From Pseudovibrio sp. M1P-2-3 (GTDB lineage: Bacteria > Pseudomonadota > Alphaproteobacteria > Rhizobiales > Stappiaceae), in contig NZ_JARRCW010000001.1 in NCBI RefSeq assembly GCF_031501865.1, forward strand, positions 753,001 to 817,000: a stretch of DNA of 64,000 bases, read 5' to 3'. Shown one piece after another: positions 1,271 to 52,021 of this stretch (within the stretch, counting starts at the first letter, position 1; each line of letters begins with the position of its first letter). The translations under genes were made by a program, and so were the position numbers. Below the pieces are notes generated by a model, which made no database searches, had not been told where the DNA came from, and worked only from the letters and a program-made list of their open reading frames with translations.

Positions 1271-1916
1271 TGAATTGCACCCGATTGAAAAATACTCAGA
1301 GTCATAGTGACTCAGTTGTCTTGCCTGAACCTGTTCGATACTTAGTTTTTGCTGAGTCCGTCAATTATACTTGGTAAGTACCGTGGTTCGGCGAAGGTCT
1401 TTAACAAGACTTGCCCTTCATTTGAATTCATCAATATATGCAAGTTGTGTCTCAAGCCATCATAGGGGGGCGAGAGCAGGTCATTAGTGCTTTGGTGATT
1501 CTACATTTCTTATGTGGTTTATTTTAAATAATTATATGCAAGTTACATTTTAGTTTGTGACTCTAAAAAGTATATATATTGCTTGAATGAGCATTGCCTC
1601 TCCGTAATTTTTTAAAAAAAATGTCTATATCACGTAGTTTTGTTGATTTGATCGCAAAATTTGACAGTGCCTATATTTTTCTACCTAGTTTTGTTTGTTG
1701 GTTATTGAAAAATACCTTACTTGATTTGACCTCCTTTAAAAAACTACCCAAAATACAAGTGGTAATACCTACAATGTTGAAGGTGACACCCTTAATGATT
1801 GTGGAAGCGGACTGCTTTTGCTCGTTGGGCAATGGGGCAGGGGACCTTGGTCAGCTTTCACTGCGGGGAGTAACGGCAGCGGAAATACGCGTGTGCGCTG
1901 TCGATATGGAGGGGAA
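1271..1916. other. AT-rich intergenic region, no convincing gene
   Basis: This stretch separates the divergent DUF1217 and first FadL genes. It is clearly AT-rich around 1490-1770. Short open frames exist but show no ribosome binding site or coding character. It must hold promoters for both neighbours; none could be assigned. Confidence 0.5.
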
Positions 1917-3209
1917 ATGCATAAGTTTAATAGTAGTATTCAATTTGCAGCCATTCTTGGAACGGCTTTAGCACCAGTATCAGCTCTAGCAACCGGCTGG
2001 GACACAACTGGAATCGGTAGTTATGACTTGCTGTTTTCGCCAAAGAAAGTGGTTGTTGAAGGTCAGGCGACCTATGTGAATGTGAATGTTGATTATAAGA
2101 ATGTGAAGGGGACAAGCCAAGCGGGGGCCGCTAGGGATCAGTATTTTGGCGCAAAGACCACACAAGGTTCTAGCGGAGCTATTCCTGATGTGGACCTTTA
2201 TTCTTTAGCCGCAAAAGTGAGATTAGGGAATTCTATTGATTGTTTGGGGCAGTTACATACACCAATCAGCACCCATGAGAGCCCTGGCGAAACTTGGGGC
2301 GGCCGCTATGCTGTTGCTGAGACGGATGCGTCAACGACCACCTTTGATGCTACCTGCTCCTACAAGTTCAACATTAATGAGAATAGCAGTCTTCGCCTGA
2401 TTGGTGGGTTTGGTGTGAGTACCGTGGACTTCTATACCTCTAGCATGCAGATTATTCCAATATTAGGTAATCCACCAGCGGTTCCACCTTCTTATTTAGA
2501 TGCAAAAACCGAAGTTAGTATGACTGAGGATGGGTATGGCTTTGGGTGGCGTGCAGGGGTAGGCTATGAGATGCCAAGCATCGCACTTCGGGCCTACGCC
2601 ATCTATAATGCGGAAGTTGAAGGAGATCTCGAGGGGGACTTTCTTCTATCGCACGATTCTGCATTCAATCATCAATTGGACCCCACCAACACCGTTGGAG
2701 CTAAAGCACGTGCAACAACAACGGTTACTCTTCCTCAATCAATTGAATTTGGCATCCGTTCAGGAATTGCGCCAAACTGGCTCGTATCCATTGGTGCCAA
2801 ATGGACTGACTGGAGTATCATGGAAGATCTAGTCGTAAGCTTTGATAAGGTCGAGGATATAACTGGAAAGCTCAATAACGGCGATAAAACAAAGCGTATC
2901 CTGGGCTATTCCGATGGATGGGCGGTTGAAGGTACGGTGGCTCATATGGTCAATGAAGACCTGATTGTGGCAGCGTCGTTGAAGTGGGATCAGGGGGTTG
3001 GTGAAATCTACTCGGATACCTATCAATTCGGCCTTGGCGGATCCTACCAGATTTCCGAGCACTCCAAGGTCTCCCTTGGCGGACGCGCAATCTATAAAAC
3101 TGCGGGGGAAGGGCTTTACCAGTCTGAGGATTCTGCAGCCACGGGCCACTATGAATACGGTGACTCCTGGAACTTTGCAGTCTCATCCCGTTTGACCTTT
3201 GAATTTTAA
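1917..3209 (+). CDS. FadL/OmpP1-type outer membrane transport protein, copy 1 (430 aa)
   Basis: Predicted 14-strand-type outer membrane channel for hydrophobic compounds. The start chosen is ATG 1917, preceded by GGAGGGG; it yields a signal peptide ending near ALA-TGW, whereas the longer upstream frame does not. The mature N-terminus carries GWDTTGIGSYDLLFSPKKV, shared with the next gene. Many short amphipathic stretches with aromatic ends (YGFGWRAGVGYEMPSIALRAY, SRLTFEF at the C-terminus) fit a beta-barrel; the terminal Phe is typical of Bam substrates. It is followed by a strong terminator, so it is probably its own transcript. The substrate cannot be read from sequence. Confidence 0.78.
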   Translation: MHKFNSSIQFAAILGTALAPVSALATGWDTTGIGSYDLLFSPKKVVVEGQATYVNVNVDYKNVKGTSQAGAARDQYFGAKTTQGSSGAIPDVDLYSLAAKVRLGNSIDCLGQLHTPISTHESPGETWGGRYAVAETDASTTTFDATCSYKFNINENSSLRLIGGFGVSTVDFYTSSMQIIPILGNPPAVPPSYLDAKTEVSMTEDGYGFGWRAGVGYEMPSIALRAYAIYNAEVEGDLEGDFLLSHDSAFNHQLDPTNTVGAKARATTTVTLPQSIEFGIRSGIAPNWLVSIGAKWTDWSIMEDLVVSFDKVEDITGKLNNGDKTKRILGYSDGWAVEGTVAHMVNEDLIVAASLKWDQGVGEIYSDTYQFGLGGSYQISEHSKVSLGGRAIYKTAGEGLYQSEDSAATGHYEYGDSWNFAVSSRLTFEF

Positions 3210-3256
3210 AAAAGACTGAGAGGCCACTCTCGCTTCTTTGTGAGCAGAGAAGAAAA

Positions 3257-3292
3257 GAAACCGGAGCCATTGGCCTCCGGTTTCTTTATTTT
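3257..3292 (+). terminator. Rho-independent terminator after FadL copy 1
   Basis: A perfect 10-bp stem, GAAACCGGAG with CTCCGGTTTC, encloses an 8-nt loop and is followed by TTATTTTT. It lies 47 bp after the stop codon. Confidence 0.85.
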
Positions 3293-3785
3293 TGGCAAAA
3301 ATACTAATGCGAATCATACGAATCATTTTATCAATTCTGATATGCAGAATATTGTTTCGCTGGGTAAAATAGCTTTTTAGCGCCCATTGGGGAGCCCCTA
3401 TCGGAAAAAACAGCACTATTTATGTAGTTTTTCTCGAATTTAAAAACTAAGCCCGAAATGCACGTCCTCTTATAAATCTATTAGAAAATAGAGCTGGAAG
3501 GTCTGGTTTTGATTGTTTACTGACCCAGTTTCCCACTTTTGATCTCCTCTTTCATCAAAAATGGATGCCACTTACGGCTTACCCTCAACCCTGCAGTACT
3601 TGACCAGTGTGAAATCATCCCACCAAAATAAGCGTGTTAATACTTACGGGTCCGTATTTGGGTAAAGCTGTCATGTGAAATGGCTTCATCGCTTCAAGGG
3701 AGGGAGCGCCTGATACCGGAAAGTCAAACGGCATTTGGGAAGAGGAGAGATCCATGAACACATGCGATCGATCCAAGGAGGGGGA
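3293..3785. other. Intergenic region upstream of FadL copy 2
   Basis: No gene seen. A ribosome binding site (AAGGAGGGGG) sits immediately before the next start at 3786. The spacing suggests an independent promoter for the second copy. Confidence 0.45.
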
Positions 3786-5003
3786 ATGCATAAAATAATT
3801 CGCGGTCTACAGATGGGAGCAGCGCTGGGTATTCTGGCAGCACCAACTACAGCTCTGGCATCCGGTTGGGATACCACCGGCTTGGGTCGCTACGATCTCC
3901 TGTTTAGTCCGAAAAAGGTCGTCTTGGAAGGCAAAACTAATTATGTAGACCGCAATGTGGACTACAAAAATGTTGAGGCGAAGCAAGATCTTTTTAGAAC
4001 GGGCTCCGGCCAATCTATATCTGGGGGAGAGAGTGATAATGTCATTCCAGATTTACAGTTTTATTCACTCGCCGCAAAGGTGAATATCATTGAGCCCATT
4101 GATTGTATGGGTGCTCTTCACACACCTTTCATTATCTATGAGGAGCCTGGGTTTGAGTGGGAAGGTCGTTACCAGTCCGGGAAGACAGATGCCAGTGTGA
4201 TCAGTTTTGACGGAACCTGTTCCTATAAGTTCGATATAGGGGATAAATATAAGCTGCGGCTTATTGGTGGTGGCAATATCTCCCAAATGGATTTCCAGCA
4301 GTCACGAGCCTATTTTACTGGTGTGGATCAAAAGGCTACTATTGACATGTCATCGGATGACTATGGTTTTGGGTGGCGTGCAGGGGTCGCATTTGAGCGT
4401 CCTGATATAGCATTACGGGCCTATGCAGTCTATAATTCAGCCGTTGAAATGGACTTGGATGGAAACTTCACAATTGGCGGAACGCAATATGCGTTAACCT
4501 CAGGGATGATAGACCTTCCTCAGTCAATTGAGTTCGGGATTGAAACTGGTGTAGCCCCAGACTGGAAAGTCTCTTTGAAGGCCAAATGGATGGATTGGAG
4601 TTCTTTAGACACTCTTGATGTCAGTTTTTCCGATCGGCTGAATCCACTCCTTCCGTCGCAAACAAAACGCATGCTGAACTATGATGATGGTTGGTCCGTA
4701 CAGGCTGGAGTAAGCCATAGGTTCAATGAGCAGTTCGCAATGGGAGCTGCCGTTATCTGGGACTCAGGTATAGGGCATATGTATTCCGATACATACCAAG
4801 TTGCACTTGGAGGCGCCTATGATATTACCGAGCATGTTCAGTTCGCCTTAGGTGGTCGTGCAATCTACAAAACGTCAGGTGATGGAAACTATGTGAGTGA
4901 GGACTCGACAACAGGATCCGCTGATACCGAGAATTACGCGTCCTATGATTACGATTCCTCTTGGAACTTCATCGCGACATCACGTTTGACATTTTCTTTC
5001 TAA
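3786..5003 (+). CDS. FadL/OmpP1-type outer membrane transport protein, copy 2 (405 aa)
   Basis: Paralogue of the preceding gene in tandem. Start ATG 3786 directly follows AGGAGGGGG and gives a signal peptide (MHKIIRGLQMGAALGILAAP...ALA). The first 60 residues of the two copies are near-colinear: both have GWDTTG, RYDLLFSPKKV or SYDLLFSPKKV, then VDYKNV; the barrel core keeps DYGFGWRAGVAFE..DIALRAY and the C-terminus SRLTFSF. Identity by eye is roughly half and the loops differ most, as expected if the two channels diverged in substrate. It ends with its own terminator. Confidence 0.78.
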   Translation: MHKIIRGLQMGAALGILAAPTTALASGWDTTGLGRYDLLFSPKKVVLEGKTNYVDRNVDYKNVEAKQDLFRTGSGQSISGGESDNVIPDLQFYSLAAKVNIIEPIDCMGALHTPFIIYEEPGFEWEGRYQSGKTDASVISFDGTCSYKFDIGDKYKLRLIGGGNISQMDFQQSRAYFTGVDQKATIDMSSDDYGFGWRAGVAFERPDIALRAYAVYNSAVEMDLDGNFTIGGTQYALTSGMIDLPQSIEFGIETGVAPDWKVSLKAKWMDWSSLDTLDVSFSDRLNPLLPSQTKRMLNYDDGWSVQAGVSHRFNEQFAMGAAVIWDSGIGHMYSDTYQVALGGAYDITEHVQFALGGRAIYKTSGDGNYVSEDSTTGSADTENYASYDYDSSWNFIATSRLTFSF

Positions 5004-12168: not shown

Positions 12169-12181
12169 TAGTCTTGAGCCT

Positions 12182-12787
12182 TTATACTGAAACATATCCA
12201 GCTGCCTTGAAGTAATTCCAACACTCTTGGGGTGTGAACAGATCGCATATGTCACCCAGAGCCTTTATCAAGGTCTCAAAGGTTCTGGCTTTCATTCTGC
12301 GTAGGTGTGCTTTGAGCTTGGAAAACGCCATTTCGATAGGATTGAGATCAGGAGAATAGGGCGGCAGAAAAAGGAACCAACACCCGCTTTGTCTGAGGGC
12401 CCTTGCGGCTTCTGGAACTTTGTGTGTGGACAGGTTATCCAGAATGACCACCGTTTTAGGGTGCAAGCATGGAGCCAGTTGTGTCGTGATATAAGTGGTG
12501 AATGCCTTGCCATTCATGGCCCCGTCCAGAACCCAGGGCGCAATGAGTCCCTCGTGGGTCAAACCGGCGATAAAGGTCTGGTTCTGCCAGCGTCCAAACG
12601 GCGCTGTGTCAAGGGCTCGTTCCCCTTTAAAGGCTCGGCCTCGCAGCCGGGTTAAATTCGTTTTAACACTGGTTTCATCGAGAAACACCAGTCTCTCAGG
12701 CAGATCACGCATTATAGGCTGACGGGTGTGGCGCCATTCATCTCTGGCATTTTGTACATGGAGTTTGCCACGCTCGGTTGCCACCAA
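12182..12787 (-). CDS. IS630 transposase, catalytic part (orfB)
   Basis: DDE domain of the transposase: FLDETSV supplies the first Asp, [10 protein letters not shown] the second and [15 protein letters not shown] the Glu. It is in the -1 frame relative to orfA; the frames overlap at a run of eight A residues on the minus strand (around 12795-12802), where slippage would join YTYKK to [11 protein letters not shown]. The fused protein would have about 319 aa, normal for the family. Amino-acid sequence is the same as the corresponding parts of the interrupted copy. Confidence 0.85.
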
Positions 12788-13140
12788 CGATTTTTTTTAT
12801 AGGTGTAGCCAAGACGGCGCAAAGCCTTGGAGACGGAAGTATGGTGAACCCTCACTCCCTCAGCCATGAAAAGTGCATCACATAACTCCATCAACGTGAT
12901 ATCTCCGTCTTGATTGACCAGCTCGCGCAAGAAGGAGAGGTAGGGCTCCAATTTTCCGCCTCCCTTTGGGCGCCCTGTCCTGACCGGGATTAAACTCTGC
13001 CCCTCCCGAACTTTACGGGCCAAGCGAGATCCTGATGCTGGAGAGATCAGCAGGCGGCGTGCTGCTTCACGCCCGCTCATCCCGGATAAAATGAGCCTTT
13101 TAAAGCGAAGGCGTAAATCAAGTGAAAGTGGCCGGCCCAT
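12712..13140 (-). CDS. IS630 transposase, DNA-binding part (orfA)
   Basis: N-terminal half with a helix-turn-helix ([27 protein letters not shown]) and a second winged-helix-like region ([21 protein letters not shown]). Start ATG 13140 has GGGAGGAGATCAC in front. Read without frameshift it ends 142 aa in, past the slippage site, in a tail unlike transposases ([14 protein letters not shown]...). Identical at the protein level to the orfA at 48639-49067. Confidence 0.85.
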
Positions 13141-13305
13141 GTGATCTCCTCCCTAAAAGGAGTGAATCACAAATCAACCTGATTGGGAATCCCCAATCGA
13201 TTCAGCGTTGCGCCTCATTGCTTTAAAGCTGAGACTGAGTACTTTTCCAGAGATGTAAGTTTTGCCTTCAGGGGCGAAGACAAAACACTTGGCCCTATAG
13301 CTTTC

Positions 13306-46054: not shown

Positions 46055-46083
46055 GGGCGCAGTGGCATACAGTACCAATAACG

Positions 46084-46116
46084 AAGGCTCCGGATGATTT
46101 TCGGGGCCTTTTTTGT
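46084..46116 (+). terminator. metH terminator
   Basis: AAGGCTCCG pairs with CGGGGCCTT (one G-U) around a 9-nt loop, followed by TTTTTGTTG. It is 29 bp after the stop. Confidence 0.8.
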
Positions 46117-46130
46117 TGTGAGCGAGTAAT

Positions 46131-46228
46131 CTGGGTCCCGGATCAGCGCTTCGCTTGTCCGGGAAGACGTCTTTTGGACCGTAAGCCCCAAAGGCACCCA
46201 CAGTCATTCCGGCCACCGAGCCGGAAGC
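46131..46228. repeat. Dispersed intergenic repeat, copy A
   Basis: CTGGGTCCCGGATCA opens the element and TCATTCCGGCCACCGAGCCGG closes it; each half can fold (CCGGA/TCCGG and CCGG/CCGG). The same blocks recur at 55516-55579. Such elements are widespread in alphaproteobacterial intergenic DNA. Confidence 0.55.
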
Positions 46229-46391
46229 CAGTAAACTTGAATGATATGTATTTTGCGTTGCTGCTCGCTTGGTGAAAGGAACATCAACTACCTATGGTGG
46301 TGTTGTTTTTAATTTGGTAAAAAGCTTCAAGAATGTTCTCATATAAAGCTGAAAAAATGTGCAGTCATGGCGCTTGGGTAATGGGGAAAAG

Positions 46392-46773
46392 ATGCGATAT
46401 AAAACACGGTTAGTACTCTTGGCGCTATTGTTGGTCGGGGGAGTGGGGGCATCCATACCAGCGCAGGCAGGCGATGAAGCGCGAGTGTCCTATGATGAGA
46501 TTGATGCGCTTTATGTGAAGGCTGAGAGTGGAGATACAGAAGCACAGTTAGAACTTGCAAAAAAGTATGCTTTAGGCCAAGGCACCCCCAAGAAGCCCAT
46601 ACAGGCGTTCTACTGGTACAGCAAAGCTGCTGAACAAGAGCATGCACGCGCTCAGCTCTCCCTTGGTAAAATGTATCATATTGGTGAAGGGACCGCTGTA
46701 AATCATGAAAAGGCCGTTCACTGGGTAACGAAATCAGCAAAACAGGGCCATGCACCTGCACAGTTTTATCTAG
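46392..46773 (+). pseudogene. Sel1-repeat protein gene, 5' fragment (gene broken by two insertions)
   Basis: Start ATG 46392 follows GGGGAAAAG; it encodes a signal peptide (MRYKTRLVLLALLLVGGVGASIPAQA) and the first Sel1 helical repeats (about 36 residues each: AFYWYSKAAEQEHARAQLSLGKMYHIGEGT). The frame reaches the CTAG target at 46770-46773 and then runs into the IS5-family element, ending at 46835. If the IS5 element with one CTAG, and the IS630 element with one TA, are removed, fragments 46392-46773, 47624-48555 and 50776-50916 join in one frame of 485 codons. The intact protein would be a periplasmic Sel1 solenoid of about 11 repeats. Function unknown; such repeats bind other proteins. Confidence 0.88.
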
Positions 46774-46798
46774 GACCTGTTTACATACTGCGAAACCA

Positions 46799-47146
46799 TT
46801 ACCTAACAGCAGCTATGTGTAGGAAGCCTAAGTAACTGCAAGCTGTTTTGTCATAGCGGGTGGCAACCCTTCGGGCTGTTTTAAGTTTGTTGAAGCAGCG
46901 TTCAACTTGATTTCGCAAAACGTAGATGAAATGGTCTATTTCTATGGGCTCCTTACGACTTCGTCGTCCGGGTATTACGGCTGTGCCGCCATTGGCTTGG
47001 CAATGCTCACGAATACGATCCCCGTCATAACCTCGATCCGCGATCAAAACCTTGGCGGTAGGTCCACCTGCGTCATAAAGGATGTCATATCCTTTATAAT
47101 CGGAGACTTCGCCACCAGAAATTTCAAGACGTATCGGGAGTCCCAT
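46799..47146 (-). CDS. IS5-family transposase, C-terminal part (orfB)
   Basis: Contains VLIADRGYDGDRIREHC, the second catalytic Asp region, and RNQVERCFNKLKTARRVATRYDK, the conserved Glu (Y1-like) region of IS5 DDE enzymes. The frame is open upstream to about 47205 (KQGFGRSKGGFTTKVHLIANIMG) and overlaps orfA at AAAAGGGGG, where a -1 slip would fuse the halves into about 246 aa. The ATG at 47146 is just the first internal Met. Confidence 0.82.
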   Translation of the reverse strand: MGLPIRLEISGGEVSDYKGYDILYDAGGPTAKVLIADRGYDGDRIREHCQANGGTAVIPGRRSRKEPIEIDHFIYVLRNQVERCFNKLKTARRVATRYDKTACSYLGFLHIAAVR

Positions 47147-47157
47147 AATATTGGCGA

Positions 47158-47538
47158 TCAGGTGGACTTTCGTCGTAAAGCCACCTTTTGAGCGGCCAAA
47201 ACCCTGTTTTTGAGTCCCCCTTTTGCGCCCGCCGCCTGCTGGTGGGCACGGATGACAGCGCTATCAATCATATGAACACTGGAAGGGAGTGAAGTACTGT
47301 CATTCAACACGGACAGGATCAATTCCCACAGCCCTGCTTGGCTCCATCGGCGGAATTGTTGGTACACACTGATCCATTTCCCAAACTCTTCGGGCAAATC
47401 GCGCCACTGTGCACCAGTTCTGGCAATCCAAAAGATCCCATCAAGAACACGGCGGTGATCCTTTGGTTTACGACCACCTCGTCCCCGTATGGCAGCGACA
47501 AACTGCTCAAAAAACGCCCATTCATCATCACTCATCAA
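47158..47538 (-). CDS. IS5-family transposase, N-terminal part (orfA)
   Basis: Begins MMSDDEWAFFEQFVAAIRGRGGRKPKDHRRVLDGIFWIARTGAQWRDLPEEFG, the typical helix-turn-helix-containing N-terminus of IS427-type transposases, and includes the first catalytic Asp in VHMIDSAVIRAHQ. Without frameshift it ends in a non-conserved tail (LKNRVLAAQKVALRRKST). Confidence 0.82.
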   Translation of the reverse strand: MMSDDEWAFFEQFVAAIRGRGGRKPKDHRRVLDGIFWIARTGAQWRDLPEEFGKWISVYQQFRRWSQAGLWELILSVLNDSTSLPSSVHMIDSAVIRAHQQAAGAKGGLKNRVLAAQKVALRRKST

Positions 47539-47619
47539 GTGCCGTGCCTAGGTAACCTCTCAAAAAGATACCTTGAATCACAAACTGATGGATTTGTGAA
47601 TCCTATTTGTAAACAGGTC

Positions 47620-48555
47620 CTAGGTTGGATGTACGAGGATGGCGAGGGTGTTCCGCAGGACTATAAAAAAGCCGTGTATTGGCATCACGCAGCAGCGGAA
47701 CAAGGGAATGTAAAATCTCAACATAATCTTGGTGGGCATTACTACAATGGAAATGGAGTGTCACAAAACTATGAGCAAGCTTTTTATTGGTACTTAAAAG
47801 CGGCTGAGCAGGGAGGCGCCGGTTCTCAATACACTGTCGCTCTTATGTATAGTAAAGGTCGCGGTGTTGCTCGGGACTATGATAGGGCACTGGAATGGTA
47901 CAAAAAAGCCGCCCATCAAGGAGATGCTGAATCTCAATATAGTATTGGGTGGATGTATTATGAAGGGGAAGGCGTTCCACAAAGCTATGAGCAGGCGCTG
48001 GACTGGTATCATAAATCGGCCACTCTGGGATTTGCAATGGCACAGCATAATTTGGGACTAATGTTCCATAAAGGAGAGGGAGTTGAACAGAATTTCAAGA
48101 AAGCCTTCTACTGGATTAGCCTAGCAGCTGAGCAAGGAGAAGCTTTTGCCCAGAGATTTCTCGGTGCAATGTATCAAGATGGCGAGGGAACGACTGCAGA
48201 TTACAAACTTGCTTTATACTGGTTCCAGAAGGCGGCAGAGCAGGGAGACGCAGATGCTCAGTTTCGGCTTGGTTGGATGCATTTCAATGGGGAAGGCACT
48301 CCTAAGAATAACGCAGAAGCCATTATTTGGATAGAGAAGTCTGCAAGAGCCGGGGATGCGCTGTCTCAGTATGTGTTGGGTTTCCTTTATGAAATTGATA
48401 GGGAGCAAACATGGAGCCAAGAGACTATCGCATATTGGTATGAAAGATCTGCAAAGCAGGGCATTGCTATGGCTCAGCTGAAACTTGGGTGGAGATACCA
48501 TGAGGGTAAAGGGGTGCTAAAAAGTGATCGACAAGCCTATATCTGGTTTAGTTTA
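47620..48555 (+). pseudogene. Sel1-repeat protein gene, central fragment
   Basis: The bulk of the Sel1 array, about nine repeats with the pattern A-x-x-x-Y-x-K-A-A-x-Q-G-x-x-x-[AS]-Q-x-x-[LI]-G-x-M-[YF]-x-x-G-x-G-[VT]. It starts at the right-hand CTAG repeat of the IS5 element and ends in the TA target (48554-48555) of the IS630 element, mid-repeat at YIWFSL. It has no start codon of its own with a ribosome site. The reading continues 9 bp into the IS before a stop at 48562-48564. Confidence 0.85.
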
Positions 48556-48638
48556 AAGCAATGAGGCGCAACGCTGAATCGATTGGGGATTCCCAATCAG
48601 GTTGATTTGTGATTCACTCCTTTTAGGGAGGAGATCAC

Positions 48639-49067
48639 ATGGGCCGGCCACTTTCACTTGATTTACGCCTTCGCTTTAAAAGGCTCATTTTATCCGGGAT
48701 GAGCGGGCGTGAAGCAGCACGCCGCCTGCTGATCTCTCCAGCATCAGGATCTCGCTTGGCCCGTAAAGTTCGGGAGGGGCAGAGTTTAATCCCGGTCAGG
48801 ACAGGGCGCCCAAAGGGAGGCGGAAAATTGGAGCCCTACCTCTCCTTCTTGCGCGAGCTGGTCAATCAAGACGGAGATATCACGTTGATGGAGTTATGTG
48901 ATGCACTTTTCATGGCTGAGGGAGTGAGGGTTCACCATACTTCCGTCTCCAAGGCTTTGCGCCGTCTTGGCTACACCTATAAAAAAAATCGTTGGTGGCA
49001 ACCGAGCGTGGCAAACTCCATGTACAAAATGCCAGAGATGAATGGCGCCACACCCGTCAGCCTATAA
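48639..49067 (+). CDS. IS630 transposase orfA, copy 2
   Basis: Same 142-aa product as at 12712-13140, with the same ribosome site (GGGAGGAGATCAC) and the same A8 slippage run near 48977-48984. It is intact, but its catalytic partner downstream is broken, so this copy cannot supply transposase by itself. Confidence 0.85.
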   Translation: MGRPLSLDLRLRFKRLILSGMSGREAARRLLISPASGSRLARKVREGQSLIPVRTGRPKGGGKLEPYLSFLRELVNQDGDITLMELCDALFMAEGVRVHHTSVSKALRRLGYTYKKNRWWQPSVANSMYKMPEMNGATPVSL

Positions 49068-49366
49068 TGCGTGATCTGCCTGAGAGACTGGTGTTTCTCG
49101 ATGAAACCAGTGTTAAAACGAATTTAACCCGGCTGCGAGGCCGAGCCTTTAAAGGGGAACGAGCCCTTGACACAGCGCCGTTTGGACGCTGGCAGAACCA
49201 GACCTTTATCGCCGGTTTGACCCACGAGGGACTCATTGCGCCCTGGGTTCTGGACGGGGCCATGAATGGCAAGGCATTCACCACTTATATCACGACACAA
49301 CTGGCTCCATGCTTGCACCCTAAAACGGTGGTCATTCTGGATAATACCAACGGCACCTGTTTTTGA
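48992..49366 (+). pseudogene. IS630 transposase orfB, 5' fragment
   Basis: Contains FLDETSV and ends VVILDN, directly after the second catalytic Asp, where the inner IS begins; the last residues (TNGTCF) are read from the inserted element. The missing part resumes at 50508. Confidence 0.85.
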
Positions 49367-49428
49367 CTCGGGATGAGGATTCCCAAATCACTTGAATTGT
49401 GATTCAACATTGGGAAAGGAGATTCCCA

Positions 49429-49944
49429 ATGTCAGCGATCCCATTGCGCCGAGACTATGATGCTTCTTCGTTACGAACTCTTGCTTGTCAAAGTAAGGAT
49501 GTCAGGCAGAGCCGCCGCCTTCTTGCTCTTGCTGCTGTTTATGATGGGTTGTCGCGCTTGGAGGCGGCACGCATGGGCGGCATGGACCGCCAAACACTGC
49601 GAGACTGGGTGCATCGGTTTAACGCAGAAGGGCCGCACGGCCTGTACAATCGTAAGAGCCCGGGCCGTGTCCGGTGGTTAAATAAAGAGCAAATGGCTGA
49701 ATTTGCAGATCTGGTTGAGGCCGGGCCTGATTTACAACAACACGGCGTAATTCGCTGGCGTCGGCGGGATCTGCAAGGTGTGATCGAGCAGAAGTTTGGG
49801 GTCAGCTATAGCGAAAGGGCTATTTCAAGCCTCCTCAGAGTTCTGGGATTTTCTCGGGTCAGCGTTCGGCCACAGCACCCGGCACAGGACGAGCAAGTTA
49901 TGGAGACATATAAAAAAACTTCCATGCCCGGCTTAAAGAAATAA
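49429..49944 (+). CDS. ISb transposase, DNA-binding part (orfA)
   Basis: Starts MSAIPLRRDYDASSLRTLACQSKDVRQSRRLLALAAVYDGLSRLEAARMGGMDRQTLRDWVHRFN, the helix-turn-helix of a common IS630 subgroup. GGGAAAGGAGATTCCC gives the ribosome site for ATG 49429. The frame stops soon after a run of seven A residues near 49912-49918, where a -1 slip would continue as [30 protein letters not shown]. Confidence 0.85.
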   Translation: MSAIPLRRDYDASSLRTLACQSKDVRQSRRLLALAAVYDGLSRLEAARMGGMDRQTLRDWVHRFNAEGPHGLYNRKSPGRVRWLNKEQMAEFADLVEAGPDLQQHGVIRWRRRDLQGVIEQKFGVSYSERAISSLLRVLGFSRVSVRPQHPAQDEQVMETYKKTSMPGLKK

Positions 49945-49952
49945 AAGCGCGC

Positions 49953-50492
49953 TTGCCCTCACAAACATCCATGGAAATCTGGTGGCAGGACGAAGCCCGC
50001 ATTGGTCAAAAAAATGGGCTCACCAGAAGGTGGGCAAAAAAAGGAACGAGACCACGGGCTCCCAGCGACGGGCGCTATCAATCAACTTATGTATTCGGGG
50101 CCATCTGCCCCGCCCACGGCAAAGGGGCAGCACTTGTTTTGCCCAAAGCCAATACCAATTCCATGCAGCTTCACCTTAAAGAAATCAGCCGAACCGTCGC
50201 CAAAGGGGCGCACGCAGTGGTCCTGATGGATCAAGCGGGTTGGCATACAACGGCAAAACTGAAGTTGCCTGATAATATAACCATCTTGCTGCTCCCACCC
50301 CGTTCTCCGGAGCTCAACCCGGTTGAAAATGTTTGGCAGTACTTACGGCAAAACTGGCTCTCTAACCGAACCTTTCAAGACTACCAGGAAATTGTCGATG
50401 CCGCCTGTTCCGCTTGGAATAAGCTTATTCAACAACCCCACACAATCACATCAATCGGTAGACGAAATTGGGCGCATACAGGTCAATTATAA
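49953..50492 (+). CDS. ISb transposase, catalytic part (orfB)
   Basis: DDE domain: [19 protein letters not shown] and [17 protein letters not shown] supply the three acidic residues. Joined to orfA by the -1 frameshift it would make about 354 aa, a full transposase. No damage is visible, so ISb could be active. The listed start is simply the first in-frame start codon. Confidence 0.85.
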
Positions 50493-50507
50493 GTGCCGTT
50501 GGTATAA

Positions 50508-50760
50508 CCTGTCCACACACAAAGTTCCAGAAGCCGCAAGGGCCCTCAGACAAAGCGGGTGTTGGTTCCTTTTTCTGCCGCCCTATTCTCCTGATCTCAA
50601 TCCTATCGAAATGGCGTTTTCCAAGCTCAAAGCACACCTACGCAGAATGAAAGCCAGAACCTTTGAGACCTTGATAAAGGCTCTGGGTGACATATGCGAT
50701 CTGTTCACACCCCAAGAGTGTTGGAATTACTTCAAGGCAGCTGGATATGTTTCAGTATAA
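50508..50760 (+). pseudogene. IS630 (ISa) transposase orfB, 3' fragment
   Basis: Resumes at [17 protein letters not shown] and holds [15 protein letters not shown] with the catalytic Glu, then ends FKAAGYVSV as in copy 1. The chimeric frame that reads into it from ISb has no biological meaning. Confidence 0.85.
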
Positions 50761-50775
50761 AGGCTCAAGACTATA

Positions 50776-50916
50776 GCTGCCCTTAGTGGAGATGAAGATG
50801 CTATGGCGGCGAAAGAATTGTTCACGGCTTCGGTCTTAACACCTGAAGAGTTAGCGGGGGCTCAAGACGAAGTTAAAGTTCTTTTTGGGAGGATGGGAGA
50901 AACTCAGGCAAACTAG
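50776..50916 (+). pseudogene. Sel1-repeat protein gene, 3' fragment
   Basis: 46 codons plus stop that complete the Sel1 protein: AALSGDEDAMAAKELFTASVLTPEELAGAQ is the usual C-terminal cap of secreted Sel1 proteins (compare the common LTPEQLAEAQ ending). It lies outside the right TA repeat of the IS630 element and joins in frame to YIWFSL at 48555. Confidence 0.85.
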
Positions 50917-50957
50917 TCAATTGGGTGGAGAGGCTGGTTCTGGCCTTTGATACCAGA

Positions 50958-50980
50958 AAGCCAGCGGTTTGCGCTGGCTT
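50958..50980 (-). terminator. Hairpin, probable minus-strand terminator
   Basis: AAGCCAGCG and CGCTGGCTT form a perfect 9-bp stem. On the minus strand it is followed by TCTGG after CTTT, and it lies just downstream of the 27-aa small gene at 51034-51117. It may also act on the Sel1 gene end. Confidence 0.5.
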
Positions 50981-51033
50981 GGGGTATGGGGAAATTTTAT
51001 GTTCTATTAAGTCTTGATTGCCCTTGTGCTTGC

Positions 51034-51117
51034 CTAGAGAAGACCCAGTACAACTGCTCCCAGAAAGGAAAAAGCGAGCATAATGGCAAATGCGTTAATG
51101 CTGCGAGATACGATCAT
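51034..51117 (-). CDS. Possible 27-aa membrane peptide
   Basis: ATG 51117 is preceded by AAGGGAG at 8-9 nt. The product MIVSRSINAFAIMLAFSFLG followed by AVVLGLL is one hydrophobic helix with a basic start, typical of single-span small membrane proteins. A hairpin lies 54 bp beyond the stop on the same strand. No family recognised; too short for routine gene finders. Confidence 0.45.
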   Translation of the reverse strand: MIVSRSINAFAIMLAFSFLGAVVLGLL

Positions 51118-51562
51118 TGTTCTCTACTCCCTTAGCTCTCTTATAGGTGGGAGTTTAGGGGAAAATTTCAACCAAGGAAAGTATAAAAGTAGCTCCCCCT
51201 AAAATGTGATAATAATCTACTGGGAACTATTTTTTTAGAATTATATTATTTTCAGATTTACTTGTTGTATTGGGTTGAATCTATTGGGTGTTATGGTTCA
51301 CCTTGATTTCGATCAATTTCTATATAATTTGTTTTACTTCCTATATATTGATGCTGGTTTGTAATATATTTGGATATAGTTTGATTCTATTAAAATTAAT
51401 ATATTTTTAAAAGTATTTTTCAAAGAAATTTAGGTGCTTGAGTGGGTTTGCCTCGCCAGTTTTCTTGGCAGCGTTGAGCCCTTATATTAACAAACGGTAC
51501 ACGAATGCATGGAAGCGCACCGTTTGTGTTTTTGAAACCTGTCCGTTCACTCCATAAGTATT
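51118..51562. other. Very AT-rich intergenic region
   Basis: Strongly AT-rich between about 51220 and 51420, without a supported gene. A CAAACGGT/ACCGTTTG inverted repeat at 51494-51530 with a long loop may end the BA14K transcript or the opposite one. Confidence 0.4.
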
Positions 51563-52021
51563 TTACTGGCAGAACTTTTGAACGCCGGAGTAGGTGGTAT
51601 ATGTGCCGGTGCTTGCGTTGAAGCTGCGGTATTTGGAGGCGCAGTAGCTGTACCACTGGGAAGACCAGGGCTGAAGCTGCTGGTAAACGGGTGGGGGAGC
51701 AACTACGGCCACAGGCTGCGGTGTGTAGGCAGGGGGCGGGGCTGGCTGGTAGTAGCGGGCCTGCGCATTGGAGGCGAGCAGTGCCCCTGTGGCAACACCT
51801 AAAATTCCAATTGCTGCGGCACCTGCAGGACTGATGCCATTTCTACGGTGCTTGCGGTGCTTATGGTGGTGTTTTTTGTTCACCTTGGTCACTTGTGTCA
51901 CTGTGGTGTAGTTGTTGGTGATGTAGGTGTTTCTTTTTGGTCCCGCATTTGCTGTTGCAACGGATGGAACCAGAATTATGCCTGCAAGAGCAACGGAAAG
52001 TACTTTCTGTTTAATAGCCAT
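51563..52021 (-). CDS. BA14K-family secreted protein
   Basis: 152 aa. Signal peptide MAIKQKVLSVALAGIILVPSVATANA, then a His/Lys-rich segment (KKHHHKHRKHRR, about 50-62), a Gly/Ala hydrophobic stretch (GAAAIGILGVATGALLA), a Pro-rich linker and the C-terminal motif WYSYCASKYRSFNASTGTYT with a final Cys, the BA14K signature first known as a Brucella antigen. Envelope-associated in alphaproteobacteria; molecular role unknown. Start ATG 52021 after GGAGTTGCAAAA. Confidence 0.88.
   Translation of the reverse strand: MAIKQKVLSVALAGIILVPSVATANAGPKRNTYITNNYTTVTQVTKVNKKHHHKHRKHRRNGISPAGAAAIGILGVATGALLASNAQARYYQPAPPPAYTPQPVAVVAPPPVYQQLQPWSSQWYSYCASKYRSFNASTGTYTTYSGVQKFCQ

Follow-up and report, generated by a model that had tools for sequence, protein, structure and literature searches.

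The stretch of DNA analysed here, called the window in the following, comprises 64,000 nucleotides of Pseudovibrio sp. M1P-2-3 (contig C1, positions 753001-817000; C1 has a length of 4.64 Mb in a 4.96-Mb genome of 8 contigs) and harbors a gene for a Sel1-repeat protein of about 484 residues that is split into three pieces by insertion sequences (ISs). We put the probability at roughly 95% that this gene, which is particular to its own lineage at this locus among 15 congeners, has been inactivated by these elements. Complete elements lie within the reading frame and are bordered by duplicated targets, CTAG/CTAG at the first site, TA/TA at the second and TAA/TAA around an element nested in the latter, as is expected for an IS-interrupted pseudogene. 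What can be read directly from the DNA are the elements with their ends and sister copies, the duplicated targets and the register of the repeats. On the plus strand, piece A (46392-46773) carries the start codon, an N-terminus that by eye resembles a signal peptide, two complete Sel1 repeats and the beginning of the next one, and includes the left CTAG copy; piece B (47624-48555) provides most of the solenoid, and piece C (50776-50916) the end of the last repeat, the C-terminal tail and the stop codon. None of the pieces is interrupted by a stop, and their lengths of 382, 932 and 141 nt add up to 485 codons including the terminal one. The original prediction, made from the letters alone, had described these three colinear pieces, and it was exact with respect to the CTAG and TA copies and to the coordinates. 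It had counted two insertions, which is right for the sites, but three insertion sequences are involved, as the second insert is a nested pair.

That the three pieces once were a single gene is supported by the repeat register, for which the pieces were compared separately by their positions in the Pfam Sel1 profile. Both A (E 1e-18, 67.5 bits, 2 stretches) and B (E 1.4e-84, 276 bits, 8 stretches) lie far above the Pfam cut-off of 30.7 bits and thus belong to the family of proteins with tandem Sel1 repeats, while C has no Pfam match of its own. At the break between A and B the last full repeat of A ends at 46751, which leaves six codons before the duplicated CTAG, and the first Sel1 match of B starts at 47620 with profile position 7. 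At the break between B and C the last Sel1 match of B stops at profile position 29 and is followed by one more codon and then by C. One frame and one repeat register therefore run across both breaks, and the chance of hitting the correct frame together with the correct 36-residue phase is, by rough arithmetic, about 1 in 108 per break. Moreover, the genome contains an uninterrupted Sel1 paralogue (L001) with an open frame of 865 codons and Sel1 matches from C1:2851872 to 2854139. Its positions 979-1911 align with residues 1-311 of B at 45%; this is only the second-best alignment of B there, because the repeats shift the register, and the best one (47.6%) is offset by whole repeats. Piece C, searched alone, matches positions 1912-1986 of the paralogue with 26 of its 46 residues (50%, with E 0.004 when 21 loci are searched), a match that is weak by itself; it follows the match of B with zero gap, and the printed C-terminus continues likewise. 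The only other match of C among these 21 loci covers 14 residues in L022 and is weak as well (E 1.1). The expectation that the Sel1 repeats continue across both junctions is thus borne out by the profile phase at both breaks and, from B to C, by the paralogue.

As Sel1-repeat proteins (PF08238) are represented by solved relatives, namely 6ok3, 4bwr and 1ouv, the last of which we take to be HcpC, the Pfam matches and these structures indicate a TPR-like solenoid as the predicted fold, with two Sel1 stretches in A and eight in B. No close characterised member was seen among the matches, and the NCBIfam equivalogs that were matched all remained far below their cut-offs. A periplasmic solenoid with an intact signal peptide had been proposed; the Sel1 repeats are confirmed, and the appearance of the N-terminus suggests that the protein would be exported.

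The insert in the CTAG site is an IS5-family element of 846 bp (46774-47619, minus strand) with perfect terminal inverted repeats of 12 bp, directly outside of which lie the two CTAG copies (46770-46773 and 47620-47623). It matches Pfam DUF4096 and DDE_Tnp_1, and its transposase is encoded in two frames on the minus strand. The open reading frame (ORF) 47158-47538 reaches 126 bits against NCBIfam transpos_IS5_3 (cut-off 110) and assigns the element to IS5, whereas ORF 46799-47146 stays just under the cut-off with 106.1 bits and matches the other half of the same model. Two-frame transposase, length, perfect ends and CTAG duplication are all features shared with the IS5 family. A second near-identical copy (L030) differs by four mismatches and one gap and is likewise flanked by CTAG on both sides, and the remaining 12 genomic matches of the element are either partial or more diverged. 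Relatives on plasmids reach 66-72% identity among the ten listed of 159 records; a coverage of 80% or more of the query is reached by a single record, at 66%, and 80-90% identity occurs in partial matches only.

The second insert (48556-50773, 2218 bp) has one TA on each side (48554-48555 and 50774-50775) and consists of two nested elements of the IS630 family, both on the plus strand. The outer one is present as a left part of 789 bp (48556-49344, ORF start at 48639), which includes the left TAA of the inner element (49342-49344), and a right part of 266 bp (50508-50773) with the C-terminal part of the DDE_3 domain; joined, they amount to 1055 bp. Its two DDE_3 pieces score 50 and 50.9 bits (cut-off 28.6) and place it in the IS630/DDE_3 group, and its N-terminal ORF has 45.5 bits against NCBIfam transpos_IS630, below the cut-off of 100. 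We examined 24 other uninterrupted copies, these being the places that share the same top DDE_3 score: 16 are identical over all 1055 bp, 8 show one to three mismatches, and every one is flanked by TA on both sides. No plasmid record covers 80% of the IS630 query, and 80-90% identity is again confined to partial matches. The window itself contains another whole outer copy (12169-13223, minus strand), which shows no difference from the copy in the Sel1 gene and has TA on both sides.

The inner element (49345-50504, 1160 bp) is nested in the transposase gene of the outer one, contains the ORFs 49399-49944 and 49953-50492, and is followed by the right copy of an apparent 3-bp duplication, TAA (50505-50507), which we attribute to this element. 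The first ORF yields 94 bits and the second 151 bits against transpos_IS630 (cut-off 100), so that the latter establishes membership. Among 21 other examined copies, none with more than six mismatches, 20 are bordered by the same 3 bp on both sides (11 TAA, 9 TTA; the exception is L051), and these trinucleotides also contain TA. This count leaves aside six places with at least 38 ungapped mismatches (L196, L199, L200, L201, L202 and L204), several of them with indels or truncations, as well as L203 (no row), C2:120827-121992 (99%) and C1:2987300-2988220 (partial). Members of the IS630 family are usually described as duplicating a 2-bp TA target. The DDE_3 transposase is a feature shared with the family, and the outer element duplicates TA, whereas the inner element seems to differ in its apparent 3-bp duplication of TTA or TAA.

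Three insertions most probably took place. A CTAG some two and a half repeats into the gene received an IS5-family element and, before or after this, a TA close to the 3' end received an IS630-family element, whose transposase gene was in turn entered by a second IS630-family element. As none of the 24 other examined outer copies carries the inner element, the inner insertion most likely happened in place. As each of the three elements also occurs elsewhere in the genome, the IS630 types many times, one might suspect an assembly error that placed multi-copy sequences into a gene which is in fact intact. This is very improbable, as both inserts have complete ends and target duplications, the locus lies within a contig of 4.64 Mb, and the nested arrangement is matched over its full length at this place only (40 scored of 83 candidates). 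The exact duplications at both inserts would also suit a reversible switch, with precise excision of the elements in part of the cells and hence a phase-variable gene instead of a dead one. Two sites, one of them with a nested element, would have to revert, and precise excision is generally rare for these IS types, which leaves such switching hardly credible. The Sel1 gene can be assumed to have lost its function, and since its pieces are free of stops and frameshifts, it was presumably functional before.

Some observations weigh against an inactivated gene. The first concerns the relatives, for which we used 15 same-genus genomes, one per species, and a family sample of 87 genomes including the own one. 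An orthologue of the Sel1 gene at the metH locus is present in none of the 15 congeners: A, B and C are unmatched at E 1e-3 in the stretches 3' of metH, which comprised 12 kb in 14 genomes and 3958 bases in G009 (L166), where the interval from metH to the homologue of the gene at 51563 is complete. Two stray matches of B in these intervals, one of 17 residues with E 0.075 and one of 62 residues with E 0.99, are treated as chance. Furthermore, with a limit of E 0.01, C alone matches only itself in the 87 genomes, although 46 residues give little power. Finally, A remains open into the IS5-type element (ORF 46359-46835) and forms together with IS sequence an open frame of 147 residues, which could give rise to a short exported product. 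Accordingly, some residual function, which would be compatible with the loss of the full-length protein, may be considered, either as a short exported Sel1 fragment from A or as an internal solenoid from B, which is part of an open frame starting at 47338. We consider this unlikely, as the frame of B begins inside the transposon, a signal sequence is absent from it by eye, and neither product would end at a repeat boundary.

The original prediction had expected a close relative to retain the gene, and had held that the interpretation falls if no relative has a colinear one. At the species level, as far as synteny is concerned, no such relative was found among the 15 congeners, and the best listed match of B in the 87 family genomes, at 51%, is the own paralogue. 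The interpretation as a pseudogene nevertheless survives, because the insertions are evident from the insertion sequences, the target duplications, the register and the own paralogue, even without a relative. The next-best matches of B in the family, among those with E 1e-40 or better, reach 50% over residues 1-236 (G008) and 44% over residues 3-275 (G004). On plasmids, none of the 1228 records has a Sel1 protein that reaches 60% identity, the best one with 47.7% over all of B coming from Psychrobacter. A congener keeping the Sel1 gene at the same place was sought and had to be dismissed, with Sel1 sequence 3' of metH in 0 of 15. In the congeners, the interval bounded by metH and their homologue of gene 51563-52021 contains an azoreductase-like match in 15 of 15 (tblastn; one is the source of the query), which in L166 is partial (43% over 136 residues), and in 12 of 15, again including the source of the query, a match to a gene that is presumably extensin-like, a name for which NCBIfam gave no support. 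Neither of them has a significant match in the own interval (window 46055-51562; best E about 0.5). The azoreductase-like protein also found nothing in a search of the own genome, an empty answer that shows little as no positive genome accompanied it. Either the Sel1 gene was gained in the own lineage while these neighbours were lost, or it was lost in the congeners; a gain would be the simpler explanation. The C-terminus of the adjoining metH product is 70-72% identical to those of Pseudovibrio exalbescens, P. hongkongensis and P. stylochi, the closest named records, although records of the own genome may be excluded there.

That the inactivation is recent, as had been suggested before, is probable because the sister copies of the elements are near-identical and the pieces of the gene lack stops. 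It has to be noted that this near-identity dates the expansion of the elements rather than the insertion into the Sel1 gene itself. The own genome contains 72 DDE_3 matches in comparison to 0-17 in the 15 congeners, nine of which have none; matches are not to be equated with elements, as the outer element in the Sel1 gene alone yields two. For DUF4096 there are 16 matches versus 0-12, with zero in seven of the 15. This contrast is less firm than the figures look, because many congeners are represented by draft assemblies with tens to hundreds of contigs, in which repeats may be hidden. The Sel1 gene was thus broken during an IS expansion by ordinary IS-mediated pseudogenisation, with which it shares the intragenic insertions with target duplications, the nested element and the many near-identical copies. 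We found no departure from this known kind, and the gene has no same-locus counterpart in the 15 congeners. More tentatively, and with considerable doubt, one could think of a Pseudovibrio lineage at the start of genome decay, in which two or more IS630-type elements, one with an unusual 3-bp TTA duplication, multiply in a burst and break lineage-specific genes including a Sel1 gene of the host-interaction type, although the genome has so far kept almost its full size. A published comparison of 18 Pseudovibrio genomes puts Sel1 proteins under symbiosis factors (PMC5959193), and therefore the loss of such a protein may be connected with a new host or lifestyle. In our literature search, no paper turned up that links Sel1 to IS630 insertion sequences and pseudogenes. 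Taken alone, the locus would be one more IS pseudogene, and the expansion around the Sel1 gene is of more interest; its value lies in being a well-marked entry to the way in which IS630 elements have expanded in a Pseudovibrio-like genome, with copies similar enough for ordering in time.

No RNA family exceeded its threshold anywhere in the window. In all three elements the transposase is distributed over two reading frames, a layout that is common to the identical or near-identical sister copies of both IS630 types, which suggests programmed frameshifting rather than decay. At another place (L048, positions 1504-3830; C1:99.9-102.3 kb) two copies of the inner element are arranged head to tail with one TAA between them in common, as if the second had used the duplicated target of the first.

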